Assembly: GCF_965363235.1 (NCBI RefSeq)
Contig: NC_134843.1
Coordinates: forward strand, 69,355,865-69,419,864
Reading direction: 5' to 3'
From: Mytilus galloprovincialis
Lineage: Eukaryota; Mollusca; Bivalvia; Mytilida; Mytilidae
Length of the DNA stretch: 64,000 nt
Position numbers and translations under genes: made by a program. Below the pieces are notes generated by a model, which saw only the letters and a list, made by a program, of their open reading frames with translations, had not been told where the DNA came from and ran no database searches. Positions within the stretch are counted from its first letter, which is position 1, and the number at the start of each line of letters is the position of its first letter. Positions 1 through 37,941 of this stretch are shown piece after piece.

Positions 1-2400
1 CAACAGTCTAATCTACGACAAAAAACGAGAAACTCTAATGAACCACATCAACAAACGACAACCACTAAACAAACACTATATGATTGGCAAAACCACCTAA
101 TGATGTCCTCTCTTGTACAACCAATACAACTTTGCTTTTGCACTTTTTTTAAATGTACTTCTTACTTACTAATCAATCTAATATCGTAACAATCATCCAT
201 AATTATATTAAGACCAGTTATATGCGGAAACGTCTATACCTCCCAATCCGGGGAACCAATGAGAAAAAAACGTAGGTAATTTGTTCTCGTTTGTATCGAC
301 GAATAAATCACAAGGAATTGGAACCCGTAAACTGTATATATCTACTTATGATTATCTAAAATGTCCCAATCGACGAAGTCAAAATTTTAAAAATGAAGTC
401 GTATATTTGTTTTTCGTCTCTTCTAACCGATTTGACAATTTCTATTGCGAAAATTGTAATTCAGTCTTCAAGCTCCAAGCTAAATAAATCTTGATGACAT
501 TATTATTGTCTGCATAATTTTTTACGAAATGACCATGAAAGTCTTGTATCAAAAAAAATAATGTTATCAAAACATTTTCTATAGCTTAAACTCTTTTGCT
601 TTTCATCAGTTGTCTACATTTTGTGAATAACTTTCGTAAATATTTTAACTGCATAACTTGATGATACAAAACTACTGGCATCAGTGAAAACTATTTTATA
701 TGGCAACACGGTATTTGAAATGAGGTTTTTTTTTTCAGAAATTGCGTGGGATGTTATCACATTTTTTTTTGTATTCCAATACCGGCTTGTGGATATTAAA
801 GTCATAAGAAACATCAAAACAAAACAAAATAGTGCATATGTTTTTTTTATAACTCAATGGATAGTTTTCATTATAAAACTTGTGTACATATACTTTTTTC
901 TGAAGAAATTTCTTTAATTTATTCATATTTAGAAGAAGTTTACTTTATTTTAATTGCTTCCCCGACATATTTTCCGTATGCAAAGTGACCTCAGTGTGAC
1001 GCATCTCGAAAAAATCCGGTGATCACAATACGCATGAATATCCTTAAAATAGACTATTATCTGAATTTACATGTTAAACACGTGCTCAATTGCCATGCCT
1101 TTTTGTTGATTTTTTGTCGATTGTTGACAAACAGGTGACAATCGTTAAACTTCGGCTTCAAAACACGAACTTTAATTACCTGCCATATTTTGTCAACAAC
1201 ACTGACCGATTGAAAAAAAAATTGACGATTATACGATATTTACACGAAAAAGATGATAAATTCGTGCACGGAAGACTAAGTTTATGATGTTTGTATGCAT
1301 TGGTTCAAGAATTGGAAGAACATTATTTTTCACCGGTCACTCGTTTCTTATGACTTTAACATTTGTATAAATATTTACTAATTCTTTAGCAAATATTTCC
1401 TTGACTTAAATTAAATAGATTTTACCAGTAATTTTGAGTCGTTTTCTGACTATAGGTAAAACAATGCAATGTACGTCAGCTTAATGCAAAATTTCTTCTT
1501 TATTGCTTATGACTGACCTCATACCGGTATAACAACATAACTGTAGAACTAGCTTTTACGTTTTCACGATAATAAGACAAAGTCGCTTGAAGACTTGTAT
1601 TAAGGTCTAAAACAGAATTACTTCTTAGTATGTAAAGAAATAAAGTTATAAAGAGTATGATTAGATTAGACATGTCATTATTATAGCATATATCATTTGT
1701 TGATTGCTTTTGGTACGATCCATAAATCTTCTTATGAAAATACATATCAGTCACTGCGTAAATTACTTGGTGATAAAGATGAAGGTCTTTATATTTTCTG
1801 TGGGAAAGACCTATTGTATGTCTTCTGATAATTTGTTTCCCGCAAAACCCTTTTCTTGCGGTATATAGTTTCGCAAGATGTTGCTTAGAAATTTTGGATA
1901 TTATATTTAACAGTTATTACGCTTTTAAAACTCATATTATGTATCCGAAGACATTTTTATAGTAAGAGTTGTCTCCCCAAACACAACGTGTTTGTGTATT
2001 TCCTCCGTAAAATCACAATCAAATGCTCTTTAATATTTGTTCGTTACATAATTATTGGCTGATTTTTATCGAAGCGATCCGGTGAAATTTTATACAATTT
2101 TTCCTAATAACATCATCTGTATAAGAACATTTCATACAAACTCTAATTGAGCGGATGTTTGGTGTGTATGTATTCCCATAATGAGTATAGGTTTTTTTTA
2201 TATAGGAGTAACAACGGTCATTCGACAAGAACAAAACAAGTTACACATTCTTCATTTATTTAAGACATTCTTGCAAATATTGTGCTGACTTGGTAACAAA
2301 TAGTCAAATCAGTTATTACAGAATCACAAAGAGATTGTTGAGCTACCACTGAAAATCGAAGAAAAATAATGCATTTATCTCTTTTATAACCTGAAATATT
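1..2400. other. AT-rich stretch with no recognisable gene
   Basis: No open frame here exceeds about 85 codons, and none resembles a family I know or is bounded by convincing splice sites. I see no terminal inverted repeats or tandem arrays. It is probably intergenic or part of a long intron of a gene outside the window. Confidence 0.5.
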
Positions 2401-2414
2401 GCAGATTGATTTCT

Positions 2415-2720
2415 TTTGATACAGATGAACATTGTCCGTTTATAAATTTTGAAATTATTAAGAAATTAAGGTTTCAACTTCCACAGGCAAAGTTGACTTT
2501 AGATAAATTTGGCTATTTATGTCAGGCATTTTTGACATATAGCTCTTCAACGGTTTCGGTACTTACACATCTTCGGGTTTCAAATGTTTGGCTTTGAGCG
2601 TTCCTGATGAAGGTAAATCCAGAAAAGCGCTTCGGACGCAAGAAATTATTAAACGTGTTGGTTTCATCTTTTTGTATAGAAAGCACATAAAACCGGCGAA
2701 AACCTTCTAAAATTTATCTT
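2415..2720 (+). repeat. Retroelement 3' tail fragment (family D)
   Basis: It contains GATGAAGGTAA followed by CCAGAAAAGCGCTTCG, preceded by a stretch reading 'aaattttgaaattattaagaa'-like sequence. The same blocks occur in the same order on the minus strand at about 16985-17200, next to a reverse-transcriptase fragment. The shared order suggests a dispersed 3' end of a retroelement family. Confidence 0.45.
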
Positions 2721-3270
2721 TAAATCATCATATCTCTAATTCTACTACATTGAATTTTCTTTAAAAAAAAAAAAAGCTGTAGGCTGTTGACACGTAAAGG
2801 AGTAGGTCCGGTAAGACCCCTTTTTGGCCCAAGAATTTAGCAGTTTTACAAAATTGTTAATATGTAATCTTTGAGTTATTTATAAGAAATTATAATGCAA
2901 TTATTTTGTATCAATGGTTCTGATTGGATGACAGTTAGCGTAAAATTCTCTATCGCCTTGTTTGTAACTAAGGAAGCCGACATTTTGAATTGCTGAATGT
3001 ATTGGCATGTAATTTCTACAATAATAAACTAAAAAAAACTCACATGTTGCACCTAAAAATCTTCTTTTTATCAAATTTTATTACATTCTGAAGCGGCACA
3101 GAAGCCAGAAAACGCCCGGTGTTTATATTTGACGCCGGAAACATACCTATGACGTCACCTAGTGTAGGGACCAAAGAAGATAACATCTTTTCGTGGAATT
3201 TTCTTTAATGAAGATTTTACACTGAAATAATGATTGCAGTTTGATTATGAACTTGTTTTGCATTAGAATA

Positions 3271-3436
3271 GAGATAACTGTATTGTATTTGAAGCTTTGC
3301 GGACGTCCATCGGTAGTTTTACTGTCGCAAATACCCGTTTACCTGTCTCCGCTACGCGTCGCCAGGTAAACTAAATTTGCGACAGTAAAACTACCGATGG
3401 ACGTCCTTAAAGCTTTAAATACAATACAGTTATCTC
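3271..3436. repeat. Near-perfect foldback (long hairpin)
   Basis: The left arm (3271-3331) and right arm (3374-3436) are almost perfect reverse complements. Each contains GGACGTCCATCGGTAGTTTT or its complement. An inner TTTACCTG/CAGGTAAA pair flanks a short GC-rich loop (CGCTACGCGTCG). High arm identity suggests a recent origin or continuing arm-to-arm conversion. Confidence 0.8.
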
Positions 3437-3570
3437 TTAAGTAGAATACTTCCGCTACATAAATATGGGCTGTTTTTGACAATACTATATCGGGTACTAG
3501 CATCATGTCATGATAAATAACTGAAATCTTCACAATTTTAGCATTTTAGTTAAATTTTAGACCGTCTTAA

Positions 3571-5014
3571 TACCGCAGTCCCACTAGGCCACGATCGCAC
3601 TACGATCTGTGAAAAAATGCAAAATTTGATGATCGTAGTACGATCGTGAAGATCGCAGTAAGTCGTATCACGGTCATTGTGTGGTCTTCAAGATCGTGCA
3701 CGTGATGAGCGTGGCCAACTTTGAACATGTTCAAAACAATCGTGGTGCGATCGTGGCGAAATAAGGCCACAGGAGAAGCGTATTGAGAGCGCAATAAGAT
3801 CGTAGTAAGATCGCAAAGGTCGCTGTACCTTTGTAGCGAGAGTGTAGCGAAAGCGTGATTCTATTTGGAGAGACTGCGCTACGATCTCACAGCGACGATA
3901 TTACGAACTCACTACGACCATCACGTTTTCACCGCGACCGAACTACGCTTCCACTTCGACTATACCACGCTGTTCACGACCACAGTACGATTCTATCACG
4001 CCCTTCTTACAAACTAACTACGTTCATACTACCACCATCATTCTGATTGACATTTTCACATAAAATATATTAAATCTCTCCAGGTTTTGTTTGTCGGTAT
4101 GTAATTAGGACTTCTTGTCCATTTTTCCTAACAGCTAAACCATGCTTTTCGTTTTTATATATAATAGACCGTTGGTTTTCCCGTTTGAATGGTTTTACAC
4201 TAGTAATTTTTTGGGCCCTTTATCATGTTTATAGCTTGCTGTTCGATGTGAGCCAATGCTCCGTGTTGAAGGCACGGTACCTTGCCCTTTAATGGTTTAC
4301 TTTTATAAATTGTTACTTGGATAGAGAGTTGTCTCATTGGCACATATACCACATCTTCCTATATCTATTGAAACATCTGTGTCATATCTGATATCGTTCA
4401 CTAAAATATCGTCATTTGAGCTTTATGGACCAGCAATAGGTTGTAATTTAGGTTGGATTGGTTGGTCCGACATCTCTACTTGATCAGAATTCGTAACTAT
4501 CAGATCTCCCTCTGCATCTACATCAACCCCTACCACCACGCCCACGTGTTCTAGTAAATTTTGGTGTCATGACTGTTTCCGAGAAATCTACGTATTAATC
4601 AGAAATAGAAGGAATGAAACGCTATTGATATGGAACACGAGGTTGACGTTATTGTTGAGAACGTAGTAAGATCACGGTATGAACGTAGTATAATCGTGGT
4701 AAGAACGTGCTATAATCGCAGTAGAAGCGTGGTAAGATCGTGTTGCAATCGTATAACTCTTGGTGTGGTCGTAGTGAGAACGTGACGAGAGTAGAAAGAT
4801 CTTGATAATCGTAGTGAGGTCGCAGAATAAGCGCGTTGAGAACGTGGTATAATCGTAGTGGGATCGTTGTAGAAGCTTAATGAGGACGTAGTAGCATCGT
4901 GAAAGCAACGAAAATTTACATTTTCATGCCACTCATACCGCGACCTCACCACGATCTGAATGTATTTTAGATCGCGGTGAGCGTGGTGCGATCGTGGTCT
5001 AGTGGGACTGGGGC
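3571..5014. mobile_element. Non-autonomous DNA element flanked by TTAA, with arrays of a ~12-bp motif
   Basis: TTAA lies directly outside both ends (3567-3570 and 5015-5018). The ends share CAGTCCCACTAG followed by CCACGATCGCAC in inverted orientation. Inside both ends are long runs of a degenerate 10-12 bp unit such as GATCGTAGTA, GATCGTGGTG and AACGTGGTAA; the unit switches strand near 3870. TTAA target sites are typical of piggyBac and Kolobok transposons. The motif runs may be transposase-binding repeats (inference). No transposase is visible. A retroelement tail lies in the middle (4195-4375). Confidence 0.65.
4195..4375 (+). repeat. Retroelement tail (family C) inside the TTAA element
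   Basis: It contains GCTCCGTGTTGAAGGC, then GAGAGTTGTCTCATTGGCAC and ACCACATCTTC. The same ordered blocks occur at 21.1, 27.7, 32.9, 42.4 and 50.1 kb. It sits between the two motif arrays of the surrounding element, which makes it a later insertion. Confidence 0.6.
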
Positions 5015-5374
5015 TTAACTGAAAGTGGCCAGATTTGTGTTTATTCATAATTTTGAAATATAAGTTGTATTTGATGATAATTCATAACATATTTAAAGGT
5101 TGAGGATGAACAAGGATGCTGCCACTTTCATTGTAGACAAAAAACATCTAAAAAATGACATTTTTGGCATATTTGATCGGTTTTTCATGTTTAGGCTTGT
5201 ATTGGAGCGTATTTAGTGACCAAATCAGTAAAAAATTTTCACTTAAACTTATTGGATCAACTGAAGTAGACACTTCAGTGTTTAAAAATTATCCAAAATC
5301 TTTCGTCAGATGAACCTGAAATTTGAGGCCAAAATAAGCCCTTACTGGACCTACTCCTTTCTGTTTTAATGATA

Positions 5375-6165
5375 TTAAAAAATCATATGGTCACCGACTT
5401 CGGTTTCTTTTTGTCTAACAATCAATTTCTTACCTTGTTGGTGGTAAAAAAAAACCATCAAAAATCAACGTTTTACGGCCTGCAACGCGATGACGTTACT
5501 ATTATTTCGACATTTTATTGCATGTTTTCAAAAGGAACACAACTATGAATAATCAATACCATAAAAACGAAGTCGGTGACCCTATCTTTATTTTGTACCA
5601 TTATAACAGAAATCTGTACAGCAACAACATATAGTTTTTTTATGAAAAATCTATGGAGTAGAAGTAGAAATTTGATGATTTTAAGACCAGTTTTTTGGCT
5701 GATATTATGTGATTTCTATACAAATATTCAACCATTTTGTAAGAATTTAATCAGTAGTATTTCAAATTATAAATGTGACAAATGCATTTTTTTTTCAATT
5801 TTCAGTTGAAGTTCATCGAGCTAAAGGTGTATGCAAAATTTTACTGAAATCCGTGACAAAGCCTATTCATGCCACTTGGCCTTAAGCCATTATTATAACT
5901 ATTTCTACACGTGGTTGTGTTAAATATCATTTTCTTTTAAAATTGTTCACCTATTTTGATTTAATTACCTGATTACGCTGATATGTGAAACTGTGTTTTT
6001 TGCCTTATGAATTGGATTTTGACAGGTTGAACTTAAAGTTTACATATTTGTAGTTTTTTTCTGTTCTGCTAAGATATTCCCAAAACTTAGAAATATATAT
6101 GAACAATTGCAATTTAATATTTAAACAAAGAATTCGGTGGTATAATTGTACTGCAACTCGGCTCG
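5375..6165. other. AT-rich stretch with nothing identified
   Basis: Only short frames and poly-A/T runs are present. The 77-codon frame at 5576 lacks splice context and similarity to any family I recognise. Confidence 0.4.
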
Positions 6166-6184
6166 TTTAACTTAGATATATTAA

Positions 6185-6394
6185 TATGGATTCATTGTTA
6201 TTCGTTCGATACCAATTTGCGTTTTTTGTTGTTGTAACAAGTGAATATAAATTCAAATGTCCAATGAATTACAAATTTTTTATAGACTTTGTATGCAGAG
6301 TTTGACAAAACCACGAAATAATATTTCCAAGAAATTGTAAATTTTCCTCAATCCACGAAAATTAATACCAACGAAAATGAACCAACCCACAGTA
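6185..6394. mobile_element. Small inverted-repeat element (GGATTCATT family)
   Basis: It begins GGATTCATTGTTATTCGTT and ends with the inverted counterpart around CCAACGAAAATGAA...CCCACAGTA. Better preserved relatives lie at 55265-55425 and 49823-50010, with a half copy at 49115-49150. A typical MITE length (~160-210 bp) and no coding capacity. Confidence 0.5.
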
Positions 6395-6414
6395 TTGGGA
6401 CAAGCGTTAAACAT

Positions 6415-6690
6415 TTGTAAGTAAAAGAGGGACGAAAGATACCAAAGGGACAGTCAAACTCATAAATTTAAAATAAACTGACAACACCATGGCTAAAACT
6501 GAAAAAGACAAACAGACAAACAATAGTACACATGACACAACATAGAAAACTAAAGAATAAACAACACGAACCCCATCAAAACCTACGGGTGATCTCAGGT
6601 GCTCCGGAAGGGTGAGCAGATCCTGCTCAACATGTGGCACCCGTCGTGTTGCTTATGTGATAACAAATCCGGTAAATAGTCTAATTCGGT
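6415..6690 (-). repeat. Retroelement 3' tail (family A)
   Basis: On the plus strand it reads AAGAGGGACGAAAGATACC, then CTGACAACACCATGGC, GGTGCTCCGGAAGGGT and CACCCGTCGTGTTG. The same series recurs at least nine times in this window. At 7.65-8.3 and 17.2-18.2 kb it is continuous with minus-strand reverse-transcriptase coding sequence, so it is the 3' untranslated end of that element. Confidence 0.7.
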
Positions 6691-7652
6691 AAAAAGCGTG
6701 TTTTTTTTAAAATATATTTTGTTTCGTTTGAGGGCATGAAGTGTGTTACAAATATTAGTGGACTGTTTAATAGCACGATATTCACGACTGGCTCTGTTAC
6801 AAGAAAATCTGAATCATGGTTAAAACGAGGAAGGACAGAGTATTGAACAGCAGTTACGGTGTAAATATATGGAATACGCCAAAAAGTAAAATATATATCA
6901 TCAAAGAAATATTAAAAAGATATGAAAAGAACATCCCGATGAACTAAGTGTAAGACAACACGGTCGAAAGATTGGGTCAAGTGGAACAAAATCCGACGCG
7001 ATAAGTTACGTAGAGAAAAAGAAGGATAAGATACTAAGGTACAGTAACAAAACAAAAATAGAAAATTACACCTTAACCACAAAAACAGAAAAACAAACAA
7101 TGAAACGAAAATGTAGTTCACCACACAATACATCCAAAACATAGGATTCAGTACACTGGACCACCAAAACCTAAACTTTCACAGCCATCACTATTTACTT
7201 AGCAGATAATTCTTAGCACCAATAAATATGAAAATGCATTTTAAGATGTACTTAAAATCTACAACGTAAAATAGATAATACAAGTCAGAAGAGCATTAGT
7301 TAAAGATCTCAAATCGAAAGAAAATAAACCTAGAATCTGCTTAAATTTTGAAAAATAACCAATAATTACCTAATGAAGTCTTTTATGAAATGAAAAATTA
7401 TGTTATGACTCAAAATATTCACCCTGTATCACGGGAAAAACACAATGAGTTTGAACATCAGACAAAAGTTCCTACGTACATGCTTATTGTGTAAACTTTA
7501 CAGTCATGTTGATCCTGATTTTCAATTATTCCGATTATTCCAATATTTTCAGTATTCTGGGGGTAACAATTATTCTGTAGAAACCAACAGCTCATTTTAC
7601 GCTATAATATAAATATAGAAGCCATTTTAGCAGCTCCTAAAAATACATTTTA

Positions 7653-8320
7653 AAAGAGGGGTGAAAGATACAAAAGTGACATTCAAACTCATGGGTAAAA
7701 AATAAACTGACAACGCCATGGCTAAAATAGAAAAAAGACAAAAAGACAAATAATAGTATCAAGACACAAATAAAACAAATAAACACTAAGCAATACGAAC
7801 CCCATCAAAATATGGGGTGATCTAAGGTGCTCTGAGAGGGTAAGCAGGTCTACAAGTGGCACCCGTCGTGTTGCTCATTTTATTACAAATCTGGTAAATA
7901 CTCTAATTCGGAAGGTCACACTCGTGAAAAGGGAACGGGATTGTTGTTACGACATAAGGAACATATCCGATATATCATCAGACTGAGTGAAACAGATATG
8001 TCATAACGGTTAACCAACTTGTGATTGTGGCCGTAAAATTCACAAAAAGCTTGATTTCAACTTAATCATTTGAAAATCTTGGTTTAATATTTTCTTATTG
8101 AGCAGCAACCCTCTTTCATGGAAATCATGATAAGAAATACAAACCAAGAAATATTATATCAATAGGAAGATATATACTTCGTAAGCAGGCCCTGCTTGAA
8201 TGTTGCTACATCGAAATGAAAAATTCACAATTGAGAAGCTGAAATCATCTCTTTTGTCGTATAGTTTTGTAATAAACAGATCCTTATTGTCAATTTCTAG
8301 ATATAAGTCAAGATTGATTT
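7653..8320 (-). mobile_element. 5'-truncated retroelement: family A tail plus the end of a reverse-transcriptase gene
   Basis: The plus strand starts AAGAGGGGTGAAAGATAC and passes through the family A series (CCCGTCGTGTTG, CATAACGGTTAACCAACT). It then reaches sequence near 8240-8300 that, on the minus strand, resembles the DKRDDF region of reverse transcriptases seen at 17.7 and 10.9 kb. It is 5'-truncated, as expected for target-primed retrotransposition. Confidence 0.55.
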
Positions 8321-8349
8321 CACGATTTTAAAAATTCATCATCATCATG

Positions 8350-8690
8350 TCAAATCGTAATCGCGAATTCAATAAGATTTTTTGGGACAACGAACCAAAT
8401 CTGTGAAAAAGAATTTGAAAAATCTTGTTCACAAATTCGTCATGTATTTAATCCAAAAATATGTGATAACGTATTAAAACTGGTGATAACGAGTTACATA
8501 ATTGATGATAACATCTTTATCCATGGAACCGATCCCTCAAATTCGTGACAACGAATTTAATCTGAAATCACAAATGGAATCAATTTATGATAACGAACTT
8601 AATACGTGATCACTAGTAATAATGTGTTCAAGATAACATGTATTATCGTTGTCACGAATTTCTGAAATCGCGAATTCAAAACTTATTTCA
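8350..8690. repeat. Cluster of GTGATAACGAATTTAAT-like motifs between AATCGCGAATTC blocks
   Basis: About nine degenerate copies of GTGATAACGAATTTAAT occur within 300 bp, with at least one on the opposite strand near 8650. AATCGCGAATTCAA occurs near both ends (8359 and 8666). No gene overlaps it. It is probably a non-autonomous element built from an internal motif array, like several others in the window. Confidence 0.5.
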
Positions 8691-16984: not shown

Positions 16985-18185
16985 AAATTGCATGCGTGCG
17001 AAGCGCTTTTCCAGATTAACCTTCATCCGGAACGTTCTAAGCCTAATATAAGAAAGCCGAGGATTTATAAACCGAACCAGTTTAAGAGTAATGTGACAAT
17101 GTAAACATTAAAATTTACTAATCCATCTAACGTCAACGTTGCCTGAGGGAGTTGAAGTCTCACTTTCTTCATAATTTCCAAATTTATAAACAGAAAATTT
17201 AGTAAGATTCTATATAAGGACAATAACAAACAAAACCAAGGAGTAAACAAAGACTCACAAAACCAAAGGACATTTACATCAACAGTTATAAATAATAATT
17301 AAGAAACTACACGAACTCCACTAATAACCGGGAGTGAAATCAGGTGCTCCGGAAGGGTAAGCATTTTCTGCACCGTATACGGCATCCGTCGTGTTATTTC
17401 TTTGTGTAGTTCGGTAATGATGGAAGGTTATTATGACTGAGGCAGAATATCAGATATGATTTCTGACACACTTTTGTCATAATGGCCAATCAGCTCATGA
17501 TGGCGACCGTAAAATTTCTTGAGTGATGACCTTAATTTAATTAATCAGCCCTGTCTTACCAACTTTTGAGAAAGCAATATTCCTCGTTCAACAAAATCAA
17601 CGTACTTTGAGCTAGCTCTAGAGTAACGTATCACTTGAGACACATATACTCCATTTGCTGGTGCCGCTGGGATGTTGCGAAACAGAAATTGACTATAGGA
17701 AAATTAAAATCATCGCGTTTGTCATAAATTTTGGTATTCAACCTACCATCAGTAGTCATTTCGAGAAAAAGGTGTAAATATGAAGCACATTTATCTGTGT
17801 CGGTAGTATCTATAATTTCAAGTTCACTTGGATATATTAAATGTAAGTGATCAATGAATCTATTATTATTAAGAGACAGTACATCATCAATATACCAAAA
17901 GGTGAAATTAAAAGACTGGGCTAATTTCTTTTCTCCTTTCTGTACAAGCCCTTGGATAAATGCTGCTTCATAGGAATATAAAAACAAATATGCAAGTAGA
18001 GGAGCGCAATTGGTACCCATTGGGATTCCAATAGTCTGTTGGAAGATCAAACCTCCAAATTCAACAAATATGTTGTTAATTAAAAAGTCCAGCATGGCAG
18101 TGATATCCTCGTCGGTATATTTTTTCCTTGACCTTGTATGATTTTTTTACAAAAATCATGTCATTTCCAGAAGTACTGACTTGAT
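16985..18185 (-). mobile_element. Reverse-transcriptase element fragment with 3' tail, inserted in the minisatellite
   Basis: A 154-codon frame at 18095-17631 on the minus strand shows the reverse-transcriptase core: IGIPMGTNCAPLLAYLFLYS, then YIDDVLSLNN, a YLHLFLEM block and DKRDDFNFPIVNF. The family A tail follows at 17600-17225, and a family D tail block lies at about 17200-16985. It is a truncated, broken copy. The same class of element is seen at 9-12 kb. I assign it to Penelope-like elements from the overall motif pattern, with moderate certainty. Confidence 0.65.
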
Positions 18186-18739
18186 GATTTCCTCTTGAAC
18201 TGATAGTTCAGCAGCTGAGGTATTGACTGATAACTCAAAATGGCCAGCCAACGATACAGTTTGTGAGTGAAGATTGTTTAGCCAACGATACAGTTGTTTA
18301 TTAAGGATTGTGTAGCCAACGATACAGTTGTGTATTAAGGATTGTTTAACCAACGATACAATTGCTTACTAAGAGATTGTTCTACCAAAGAAACCAGTCG
18401 TACACTGGGGATTACCAGCCAACAATACAGTTGTCAACTGATGATTGTCCAGCAACCAATAAATATTTTAACTGAGGATTTTCCAGTCACCAATATAGTT
18501 GTTTACTTAGGATTGTCCAACAAATACAACAGTCGTGCTATTGGGATTGTCCAGTCATCAATACAATTGTTAACTGAGGATTGTTCAGCCTACAATATAC
18601 TGTTAACTGGGGCTTGTCCATCCAACGATATGGAGGAGAGCCAGGCAATGTCAAGCAACTGATAAAATTTTAACAAAGAGTTTCACAGATGATACAATAC
18701 CCTTCCCTTTTCACGAACCTACATAATTGTATTATTTAA

Positions 18740-33270: not shown

Positions 33271-33460
33271 GAACAATATAGTTAAGAAAGTTGGATCATT
33301 TTGACAGACATATTTCATTGTTTGATTTGTTTCAAGCAGAAACGTTAACCCTTCGTTAACTCGTATGAAGCCAACCAGGTTAGCTTACAGTCATGACGCC
33401 ACGAATCTTACATATAGAGCTTATCGTGCTTTTCACTTTTAGTTAAGCAGCTAACCACAC

Positions 33461-33600
33461 AAATCATGCAAATGGTGATACAAGCATGAAACTTTGTACG
33501 AACATGCCTTTAGGTGTATGTAATCATATTAGGGGGGTAGCCACGAAAAAAAAATCATTCGATCATGGCGGCCATCTTGGATTTTCGAAATGACGTCTTC
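33461..33600 (+). repeat. Left terminal inverted repeat of the CxC element
   Basis: It starts AAATCATGCAAATGGTGATA, with ATCATATTAGGGGGGTAGCC 62 bp in and CATGGCGGCCATCTTGGA further in. Confidence 0.7.
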
Positions 33601-33604
33601 ACAG

Positions 33605-34318
33605 GGAACAGACATCATATGTATGGCCCGTTTTGCTTGTATTGTATCCAAAATGTTACAAATTGGAGTAAATCATTGTTATCTTAGATAAAGTATCACT
33701 TTCGGTCAAATATCGGTCGATAACCCACTCTTGGTTTTATGAATATCCCGAATATGAATGTTTTATAACCGAAATAATGTCAGTCGTTATATTCCACAAA
33801 ATCTTCGACTTATCTTCGATTGCGACATTAGGTTCAATAGGTTATGGACAAATAGAGGGAGTAATTTTATTATAGTTAACCTTTTTGAGAGGGTGTGTTC
33901 TCATTGTTATAAGACGTGTCTCGATCGGTACTTGTCTATCCACCGTTCATATTTTTAGTTACGAAGTTTTATTTGCAATTCTAGATCTGATCGGATATTT
34001 ATTTGAAGGAATTCTATCCCTATTACTAACACAGTTCTATAATAATACTGTTGTTAATACATCAAATACCATAATTAGAAAAGCTATCTTGAATTTTATA
34101 CAATTTCTAGAATTTTACCTGTGACGTTTCTCTGTGTTGCGTAAATTTATTCATGTTACAGACATACACTCTTCGTGCACTTCACTAATAGTTGATTAGT
34201 TTCACTCGGTTATAGTTTGCTGTTGCATTTATTTATTGCTCAGATAATATTTGCGTTATTGTTCTATAAGTTCATTGTTGATTAATTTTGTTTATATAAT
34301 AGTTACTTAGTTTTTGAA
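33605..34318. other. 5' non-coding part of the CxC element
   Basis: The region lies between the left TIR and the first recognisable codons. Short frames at 33758 and 33885 show no similarity I recognise. It may hold the element's promoter or an unrecognised exon. Confidence 0.35.
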
Positions 34319-37052
34319 ATGGCGAAACGAATTCGCTTATCAGCTTTTTCAGCAGATAGTTGGGAAACTGATTGGATAACATGTTGTTTGTGTCAGGAGG
34401 TCACAACAGACCTACTGAAATCGTCAGACAAAGGATATACAATGTTAGGCAAAAATATCCATCTTTTTCATGAATTAAATGCCCTCCCAATTACTCTTGA
34501 TATTCGGCGATTAAACCACGGAGAGGGTTTTGAAAGCACAATGAAAAAAGAAAATGCCAAGTACCATAATTTGTGTAGGACAAAGTTCAATAATACTAAA
34601 CTTGAGAGAGCCCAGAAACAAAATATGTCACTGATACCATCTGGAAGTTCTAGTGATTGTACGTCTCCTAAACTTTTTAGGTGTACTCCTCGTTCTATTA
34701 AAGATCAACAACAAAATCCAGTTGAAAATGTGCATAAATGTTTCATTTGTTATAAAGAGTGACCTTTATCTGTCTTAAAAGAGGCAATGACAATGAAACT
34801 AAACCAACGACTAGTGGGTTGTGCAACAGCTCTTCAGGATAAACAACTGTTAGCAAAGTTGAGTAGTGGTGATGTTATATCACAAGATATGAAGTATCAC
34901 CCGTCTTTTCTCGCAGCTGTATATAACAAAGAGAGATCAAAGAGACAAACAGAGATCGAAGCAGATGCACACAGGAGGAAACTATAATGAAAGAAACTTC
35001 ATTAGCTGAGCTGGTCACATACATTTTTGAAACTCAAAGAAACTTTGAAGAGTCGGTTGTGTTTCGATTAGCAGACCTTCCAAACCTGTACGAGGAAAGA
35101 TTGGCACAGCTTGGTTCTTCTTCTGCACAGGTACATTCTACTCGACTGAAGGACAAGCTATTGCAAAAGATGCCAGAATTGGAAGCACACCTAAAGGGCA
35201 GAGATGTACTTTTATGTTTGAAAAAGATATAGGACCAGCTATAGCGTTTGATTGTGATTATAATGACACCATGCATATGGCAAAGACGGCCGAAATGATT
35301 CGCTGCCAATTAGCTACAACGAAGACAACATTTTCTGGATCCTTGGTCTCTGAAGATGTCGATGATAGCATTACTCCGCCTTTGTTACAGTTGGTGAAAA
35401 TGATAGAACATGGACCTGATATCAAATCACAGTTATTCAACGTTTCTACAAAGTCTGACTTAGCTGTGGCCCAACTTTTAATGTTTAATTATCACCCAAA
35501 AAGCCAAAAGGTTACAGTACAACAAAGACATTCAGCTGATCGTGAGACACCATTTTGTGTGTATCTTGGACTATTACTCTTTGCAAAAAAAAAAACAGGA
35601 AAAGACATCTTATAGATACATTATTTCAACATGGTTTATGTATCTCTTACGGTCGGGTACGGGATTTCAACTCAACTAGGTGAAGCTGTTGTTGAACGTT
35701 ATTTAAATGAAGGTGTGGTATGCCCGCCTTTATTAAAGGGCAAAGTGTTTACCACAGCTGCAGTCGACAACATAGATCACAACCCAAGCTCAACAACATC
35801 AAAATCATCTTTTCATGGGACCGGAATCTCTATTTTTCAACATCCAATTAAAGATAATATCGGTGTTAGAAGGGATGAGTTAATATACCTACACATAAAC
35901 CAAAATCTAAAAAGGTACATGAACTCCCTGCTGCTTATATGAATATAAAACCTGCATATCTTAAAACAAAACCAGAATCTCTTATTCTGCCTGAATGTAT
36001 TACTAATATACTTAACCACAATTATATATTCATGAGTTTACAAAATGAGTATGAGTGGCTAAATACGGTGAGGTTAACAAGTGAAAATATTACGTCCGAA
36101 AATATTTCATGGTCATCATTTCATTCTTCAGAGAGACGTGGACCAACTGTTGAAATGAGCCTTAGCTGCTTAATGCCATTATTTCAAGAACAAGCTCACT
36201 CAGTTGCTACCATAAAACATTCGATGGATAAGCTCAGGGATGTTGTGTCGTTTCTTAATCCTGGTCAAACTCCAGTGATTACAGAAGACCAACCGCTATT
36301 TGTTTTGGCAAAGCAAATTCAATGGGAATGGCCAAATGAATACGGTGAAAACAAATTCCTTGTTATGTTCGGTGGATTACATATTGAGATGGCATGACGT
36401 TGGAAATACTTAATGATGTAACCGAGGTTTTTAATCGATTTAGTAAGAAACCTGTATTGGTCAGTGACGCTGATATGGAGTTGATAGAGGCATTTATTGT
36501 GCTTATGTACGACAGAACTACAACATTTGGCATCAACGAATCCAGACTTGAACTATTTGCACGCAAACAAAGACAGTATGACACCATTGGACCCACTAGT
36601 GCTGCACTGCTTGATCGTACCAAACTAGCTACATACCGAGGTGGCCATGTATGGGGACAGGCAGTCACACATGATCAACATCTACCTAGTCCTGGTGATT
36701 GGGGATGGGTTAAGGAGAATGCAGATGGAATGTGGATTCCTCATTGGACACTGTTGGAAATCACGCACAGAAGAGAACGTTAACGTAACGCGGCATTATT
36801 GTATATCCAACGTCGTTTACTTATAACGTTATCTTGTACTTCAGTTATCAATACAAATTCATACAGTTTAGACGTCTTTGTTATATTACATGCAGTTTTA
36901 GTAAAACCACTTTACGATAGACACAATTAGCAGCAATTGCTGCATCTTGCCAGGAGTTACACAAATGTGGTTGCAAGAAAACTTGTTCTGGTAATTGTAA
37001 GCGTTACAAAGCTGGCTTGACCTGTACAACGTTGTGTTCATGTAGCTGTTAA
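34319..37052 (+). pseudogene. Broken gene of the element: N-terminal Cys-motif, central GGLHIEMA region, C-terminal CxC domain
   Basis: The first part (34319-34762) starts MAKRIRLSAFSADSWETDW and has a CLCQ...H...CRTKF zinc-binding-like pattern. Further parts follow at 34787-35230, 35214-35615, 35631-35940 and 35939-36397, the last ending GGLHIEMA. Then comes 36394-36783 (YDRTTTFG, GHVWGQAVTHDQ, DWGW). After a gap with an acceptor-like CACAATTAG, 36931-37052 encodes CGCKKTCSGNCK...CTTLCSCSC and a stop. The reading frame changes about five times. Compared with homologues I remember, a central block after GGLHIEMA is missing. It is therefore a dead copy. The terminal CxC module resembles tesmin/TSO1-type cysteine motifs. 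Function (transposase or DNA-binding partner) is inference. Confidence 0.6.
36931..37052 (+). pseudogene. C-terminal CxC cysteine-rich exon of the element's gene
   Basis: The frame reads SCQELHKCGCKKTCSGNC, then KRYKAGLTCTTLCSCSC, then TAA. The nine cysteines are spaced C-x6-C-x-C-x3-C-x3-C-x9-C-x4-C-x-C-x-C. The exon is preceded by a possible splice acceptor, so it may be a separate exon rather than a frameshift. Confidence 0.65.
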
Positions 37053-37343
37053 AACGGAATACATCGGAAAATATTGTAGATTATTACACTAATCATTCCT
37101 CCAGCATGTCTAACATAATTACCGATATATCAAACGGAAATTTTGATCGTATATCTATACCACTATTATTTCACTCGTCGAGTGTACGAACTTTTTCGAC
37201 CCAAACCGGAAGTGGTGATTTTTTTTTACAATTGTTGTCTGTTTGACATATTTTTATATCATTTTATAGTATCTCAAATAGTTTTCATGACATATATAGC
37301 GTTGAAAATGGTAAGAACAGTTTTTCAATCTCCACGATTGAGC

Positions 37344-37483
37344 AAAATGATGTCAATTTTGAATTCAACATGGCCGCCGTGCAAAAAATCGAAAACATGT
37401 TGGCTACCCCTCTAATATGATAAAGTACTTCCTGATGAACGTCTATGCCAACTCCCTTGCTTGTATCACCATTTGCATGATTT
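37344..37483 (-). repeat. Right terminal inverted repeat of the CxC element
   Basis: Read on the minus strand it starts AAATCATGCAAATGGTGATA, then ATCATATTAGAGGGGTAGCC and CACGGCGGCCATGTTGAA. Block spacing is identical to the left end. Confidence 0.7.
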
Positions 37484-37941
37484 TGTCAAATTTCGGTACT
37501 AATTAAGCCGCCCCACTATTTAGACAACGTCTCTTTTTTTTTTAATTAAGTGCCACAAATATCATCATAATGGCATCATCCAAACAATTAAAGTGTTTCA
37601 ACGAAATGTTCTCCCATTTTAATTACTATCCAATTTTGAAATCAATACAACCAAATACAAATTCAAATCAAAATAAATCTCTGGATATGCCTTGTGTGCC
37701 GCTGACAAAATCTAAAAAAAATGTTTTCACTTTTTTTTTTTTTTTTGTCGAACTGTTTTAATTCAATTTTGACATATTTCCCTATGCCTTGGATAAAACC
37801 ATTGAATTCCAAACAACAAACCCAACAAACAAGTGTAATCTTACATATATGTATCTTTTCCAGAAAAAAACGTAACTAAAAACAATATATCACATGGACA
37901 ACAGTAGCAGCATCGTTTGCCCAAATAACTCAGTGATCTAA

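Follow-up and report, generated by a model that had tools for sequence, protein, structure and literature searches.

An internally deleted, non-autonomous DNA transposon copy in Mytilus galloprovincialis, most likely of the AcademX lineage, and the transposase family of its relatives

Does a gene for an 'uncharacterised' cysteine-rich protein that lies between two inverted repeats belong to the host, or to a transposon? The question is raised by a locus of the mussel Mytilus galloprovincialis in a window of 64,000 nt (assembly GCF_965363235.1, contig NC_134843.1, positions 69,355,865 to 69,419,864), which is the whole stretch of DNA that was analysed and to which our coordinates refer unless another locus is named. 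A preliminary description, made from the sequence alone, had noticed colinear terminal inverted repeats (TIRs) at 33461-37483 around a gene for a CxC protein and asked whether they delimit an unrecognised DNA transposon family, possibly with a new type of transposase. We find that the interval 33440-37518 holds a cut-and-paste DNA transposon in a decayed, non-autonomous copy, which most likely (with a probability of about 0.8) belongs to the Academ superfamily and its AcademX lineage. Academ membership itself is probable, not proven.

The colinear inverted ends are real. The main arms returned by an inverted-repeat search, 33461-33543 and 37401-37483, are 83 nt long and 75% complementary; a second, colinear pair of 20 nt (85%) lies at 33564-33583 and 37362-37381, with block-to-block offsets of 103 nt and 102 nt on the two sides. 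Inverted ends do lie where they had been placed, but comparison with other copies put the true ends outward of the arms, at 33440 and 37518, and 21 bp had been missed at the left and 35 bp at the right. The whole element (plus strand, 4079 bp, internally deleted) is thus delimited by the positions at or near which its alignment with other copies breaks. Its left TIR (33440-33583, plus strand) starts with TAGTTAAGCAGC and contains the core CATGCAAATGGTGATACAAGCATGAAA and the CATGGCGGCCATCTTG block, and its right TIR (37362-37518, minus strand) ends in CCGCCCCACTA; the two are asymmetric (TAGTTAAGC...CCCCACTA). A 3-bp target-site duplication (TSD), TTT, flanks the element at 33437-33439 and 37519-37521. 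Near both ends, several subfamilies have subterminal blocks resembling ATGGCSGCC/CAAGATGGCC (33564-33583 and 37362-37381 in the window, and the ends of the related elements L048 and L050, introduced below). These blocks, which resemble a YY1 site, could be binding sites for the transposase or for a host factor.

The same ends recur in the genome (1.38 Gb searched; reported matches on contigs C1-C14). The left 240 bp gave 115 candidates, of which 40 were scored, the window's own included; all 40 match at 85-100% identity (E 7.5e-120 to 2.2e-68), and the 39 other loci were retrieved for comparison. The 27-bp TIR core has 737 sites with at most three mismatches (364 forward and 373 reverse, which may mix left and right ends), against none for the reversed core, and because of these two results a chance origin of the ends is excluded. 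The alignment of the 39 copies to the window element begins at 33429-33447 (33460 in L029) and stops at 37518-37527 in the 21 retrieved copies with a recognised right end; across copies the end sequences are TAGTTAAGCAGC... at the left and ...GCCGCCCCACTA at the right. Two of the copies, L020 and L022 (C4:65.06-65.08 Mb), lie 19 kb apart and, because their left flanks are identical, probably represent one segmental duplication, not two insertions. In L019, a coding region resembling that of a retroelement with endonuclease and reverse transcriptase (2685-4704, by eye) lies downstream of the left end and is apparently nested in the transposon copy.

A script then sought both ends in 40 loci, the window and the 39 retrieved. 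It recognised the left end in every one and both ends in 22; the remaining 18 had no right end that the script recognised in the stretch available. The 3-bp flanks are identical in all 22 two-ended copies and the 4-bp flanks in none, and when the right flanks were shuffled, identical 3-bp flanks occurred in a mean of 2.08 and a maximum of 7 of the 22. By eye, two copies with shortened right ends that are not among the 22 (L031 and L044) also have a 3-bp duplication; none was seen at L027, whose right end is altered. Duplications of 2-3 bp occur in PIF/Harbinger, EnSpm/CACTA and Zator as well, and an assignment to one of these groups could draw on the 3-bp length, on the five of 22 duplications that are TAA or TTA, and on the right end, ...CCCCACTA. 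The Harbinger duplication is TWA, however, and the 22 copies have 13 different triplets, with 17 of the 22 other than TWA. CACTA elements have CACTA...TAGTG ends, whereas the ends here are TAGT...ACTA, and no transposase of any of these groups was among the Pfam matches, which makes such an assignment highly unlikely.

Insertion was also examined from the side of the target. For 11 junctions (that of L033 and those of 10 of the 22 copies), the flanks were joined with one triplet retained and the genome was queried with the product; at least five of the 11 have uninterrupted counterparts elsewhere among the matches listed. The joined flanks of L033 are crossed by all 40 scored places (1534 first-look candidates) at 89-91% identity, and this copy therefore sits inside an abundant repeat. 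That repeat contains AAGGGCAATAACTCC. The junctions of L009, L010, L013 and L015 have full-length uninterrupted matches at 97-99% among the best 40 for the 10 junctions queried, and within the same best 40 neither the window copy's junction nor the other five have an uninterrupted counterpart. The element has inserted by a 3-bp stagger and has multiplied, and the check proposed in the preliminary description has turned out in its favour.

What the longer copies encode was followed from L035, which has two long open reading frames (ORFs) of 685 and 735 residues that overlap in different frames. In a genome search with the 735-residue ORF, 4386 places were first-look candidates; 61 of these were scored, with 85 matching stretches. 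L048, with 62% identity to L035, measures 5821 bp; its ends are TAGTGG, its TSD is TAA and its two ORFs have 211 and 1280 residues. The same 735-residue search returned L050 (49% identity; 6375 bp, TAGTCC ends, TSD TTA) and L049 (50% identity; TAGTCC ends 4290 bp apart). The genes of L048, L049 and L050 lie within TIRs of their own that begin with TAGT, with 3-bp duplications in two of the three, and the ends of all four elements, the window's included, have a TAGT tip and a AAGCATGAAA core at one end at least. More distant is L051, in which a 2179-residue open frame (1908-8444, minus strand) carries DUF6589, the nuclease-like carboxylates described below and a CXC tail; its alignment to the family profile covers 866 columns (24% identity, E 1.1e-25), and an extra stretch of several hundred residues lies between its first candidate catalytic Asp and the second. 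Searches of the viral_contigs and genome_contigs sets found no relatives of the family.

The family thus has the features of a DNA transposon: recurrent TIRs, a TSD of fixed length, single-target empty sites and a transposase gene inside the longer copies. The proposal that the gene is the transposase gene of such an element is borne out by the recurrent ends, the 3-bp duplications and the empty sites, and other family members, about which the preliminary description had asked, do lie between comparable TIRs (L048, L049 and L050). For the same reason the account that the preliminary description had itself set against its proposal, that these ends belong to a miniature inverted-repeat transposable element (MITE) only, fails. 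More broadly, a stand-alone MITE, or an unrelated TIR element that captured a host gene or landed beside one, has a practically negligible chance of being the right explanation; nothing favours it beyond the window copy being non-autonomous. It is contradicted by L048 and L050, relatives that have TIRs of their own, and the middle of the gene, missing from the window copy, is partly present in 15 of the 39 loci (32-652 aligned residues).

The protein of the longer copies has about 1500 residues and comprises an N-terminus with CxxC and HxxC motifs (seen by eye in the N-terminal ORF of L048 as CxxC...HxxC), a DDE-like core, a nuclease-like segment and an eight-cysteine tail. Candidate DDE residues, in L048 numbering, lie in VDNI (D251), ADQP (D424) and AHE (E646). 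D424 is invariant in all four members that reach it (the L035 ORF begins later) and E646 in all five proteins; VDNI recurs in L051 by inspection, and the multiple alignment leaves the L051 VDNI unpaired. D251, D424 and E646 may be the catalytic residues. The core resembles the Pfam family DUF6589 (PF20231), which matched two of four family members (best E 7.4e-5) and, over the cut-off, L051 (E 3.8e-10); it differs in that L035 reaches 16.4 bits where the curated cut-off is 27, and L048 is unmatched. On the genome, the DUF6589 profile gave 101 matches (184 candidates, 102 scored).

In the tail, the cysteines that all five proteins share, L051 included, number exactly eight. A cysteine-rich CxC-type module on the transposase is a likeness to the Kyakuja/Dileera/Zisupton (KDZ) transposons, a group that likewise bears CxC zinc-chelating modules and with which the preliminary description had suggested a comparison. 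Pfam includes KDZ and CxC models, and searches up to E 5 matched none of them, a negative limited by the fact that HMMER drops most matches above E about 0.1. Printed KDZ duplications are 8 bp in KDZ1 and 4-8 bp in KDZ2/3 (PMC12810828), which the 3 bp found in 22 of 22 copies contradicts. Membership of KDZ is accordingly extremely unlikely.

Between the DDE-like core and the tail, residues 855-1110 (L048) contain exactly seven acidic residues that are invariant in all five proteins, L051 again included: D881, D924, E1014, D1016, D1040, D1042 and D1098. They follow the order, and a similar spacing, of D27, D80, E152, E154, D173, D175 and D236 in Pyrococcus furiosus FEN1 (1b43), the seven carboxylates of which have a catalytic role. 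The family has GCDTVSAFRGKGKKSA where FEN1 has GTDYNPGGIKGIGLKKA. A further likeness to FEN1, XPG, EXO1 and GEN1 is a GxGK-like stretch after the last carboxylate; the family segment differs from these nucleases in being fused to a transposase, and the profile similarity is not significant. A strict nuclease motif pattern was dropped, having matched two of five family proteins and none of five archaeal FEN1s, and a looser, acid-only pattern matched all five archaeal FEN1s, three of the five family proteins (not L049 or L050) and 10 of 60,000 shuffles. Column conservation was therefore used instead. The segment is probably FEN1-like in motif order and conservation, not in significant score, and we do not class it as a member of FEN1/XPG. 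XPG_I itself was found at only three places in the genome, and the one inspected is the host's own XPG gene.

The 3-bp duplications and the probable nuclease point to AcademX rather than to KDZ or a transposase of a new type. An eight-cysteine zinc finger (Cys8) is an Academ trait in Repbase; the term itself was found in none of the papers that a literature search listed. Academ and AcademX are said to have been described by Kapitonov and Jurka in 2010 and Kojima in 2020. According to one paper, TSDs are 3 or 4 bp in AcademX and 9 or 10 bp in AcademH and are linked to the encoded nuclease or helicase (PMC10045372). Another counts 100 curated consensus elements of Academ in bivalves (mean length 5565 bp) and, of the molluscs it covers, places the superfamily almost exclusively in bivalves (PMC10294476). 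Measured against these descriptions, the family resembles AcademX in its 3-bp TSD, in the combination of a probable nuclease with a DDE-like core and in its many copies in a bivalve, and the lengths of L048 and L050 accord with the printed Academ length. No tested feature differs from AcademX, the comparison being with published descriptions only. AcademH would belong to the same superfamily if the Academ assignment is right, and differs in its 9 or 10 bp TSD and its helicase, against 3 bp here and a set of Pfam matches that includes no helicase. An unrecognised family with a new type of transposase is therefore probably not what the locus contains, since its duplication length, nuclease-like C-terminal half and the lengths of its longer relatives fit what has been published on Academ and AcademX.

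Several results weigh against the Academ assignment or the protein features on which it draws. The comparison with Academ was one of published descriptions. L048 has no DUF6589 match up to E 5, and the PDB, queried with the L035 protein and the profiles A2 and A3, returned chance-level matches only. The nuclease segment compared with a FEN1/XPG profile gave P 0.61 for the four members and 0.19 with L051 added (reversed controls, P 0.42, 0.64 and 0.68), and the four members with L051 gave P 0.39 against archaeal FEN1 only; the profile alignment recovers the same carboxylate register without significance. L051 alone gave P 0.013 against the FEN1/XPG profile, at the VFD motif, and 0.031 against archaeal FEN1 only. 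The Pfam XPG models have no match in the family, and the 3-bp flanks of L049 are unmatched (TAA versus AAT) despite its TIRs.

Another possibility is that the family is a DDE superfamily distinct from Academ, a lineage without a name that would combine a DUF6589-type core, a FEN1-like nuclease and an eight-cysteine tail. Such a lineage would have spread through animals as 'uncharacterised protein', and its nuclease would process transposition intermediates within the same polypeptide. We regard both parts of this proposal as unlikely. It gains from Academ membership having been judged on descriptions, not on sequence, and from the literature: DUF6589 was not found in the papers searched, and AcademX was mentioned once, in a single paper (PMC10045372). 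On the other side, TSD length, the probable nuclease, element length and abundance in bivalves all match the published picture of Academ. No paper seen to describe XPG or FEN1 together with Academ was listed in a literature search that most subscription-journal papers lay beyond.

The following course of transposition may be proposed. The full-length protein would use its zinc-binding N-terminal part to bind the subterminal repeats, and the DDE RNase H-like core (VDN...ADQP...AHE) would excise the element and join it to the two target strands with a 3-bp offset. During excision, or when gaps are filled, the fused FEN1/XPG-like nuclease might trim flaps or other intermediates, and the eight-cysteine C-terminus could contribute contacts with DNA or protein. 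Deleted derivatives like the window copy were probably mobilised in trans by longer copies, because 14 of the 39 sampled copies, at other loci, have the window deletion.

The window copy itself is unable to make the transposase. The gene that had been noticed between the ends is a real coding region, but it is broken into eight stop-bounded pieces (34286 to 37049, plus strand, as are all gene pieces below) and most of its catalytic part is gone. The gene start (MAKRIR...), with the first CxxC...HxxC motif and a premature TGA at its end, occupies 34319-34762 and corresponds by eye to L048 1661-2296. The continuation (34763-35942) consists of the pieces 34763-34987, 34927-35232, 35049-35615 and 35616-35942; within it VDNIDHNP (35763-35786) holds the candidate first catalytic Asp and has a counterpart, VDNI, seen by eye in L048 and L051. 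The next piece (35879-36397) has TEDQP (36281-36295), with the candidate second Asp, and GGLHIEM (36371-36391). It ends at the junction of a 1.9-kb internal deletion (36391-36397), after which a piece with GHVWGQ and DWGW (36397-36783) follows.

The deletion leaves the frameshifted gene without about 640 residues (about L048 residues 477-1113), including the candidate catalytic Glu and all seven nuclease-like acidic residues. Its junction is spanned in 14 of the 39 retrieved copies; in 14 others a single side is matched, in 11 neither side is, and L030, which has 32 residues of the missing middle, also spans the junction. L035 has ATGGCA at both sides of the deleted segment (by eye), and the deletion therefore fits repair by microhomology. 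Further on, a 168-bp insertion (36752-36919) that starts TGTTGG and lies between GACAC direct repeats breaks the gene; its sequence is absent from the rest of the window and from the 39 retrieved loci. The C-terminal cysteine module (CGCKKTCSGNCKRYKAGLTCTTLCSCSC, 36921-37049) retains seven of the eight family-conserved cysteines, the eighth having been lost by a change of CKC to CKR. A Pfam search with seven of the window pieces gave a single chance-level match (UDI, E 0.12).

Elsewhere in the window, an ORF at 17631-18146 (minus strand), which by eye resembles a Penelope-type reverse transcriptase, adjoins a tandem array at 18244-18630 with 11 copies of 34 bp. Scanning the window for Rfam families and tRNAs gave no matches.

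With this locus, the large and multicopy gene family that has gone as 'uncharacterised', that of the 4386 first-look candidates and 61 scored places found with L035, is assigned to a DNA transposon, and such genes should therefore be masked in annotation and in counts of gene families. We know of no biochemical study of a transposase with a FEN1-like segment in the same polypeptide, and the candidate DDE residues and seven nuclease-like carboxylates located here provide a map for a protein of this kind.

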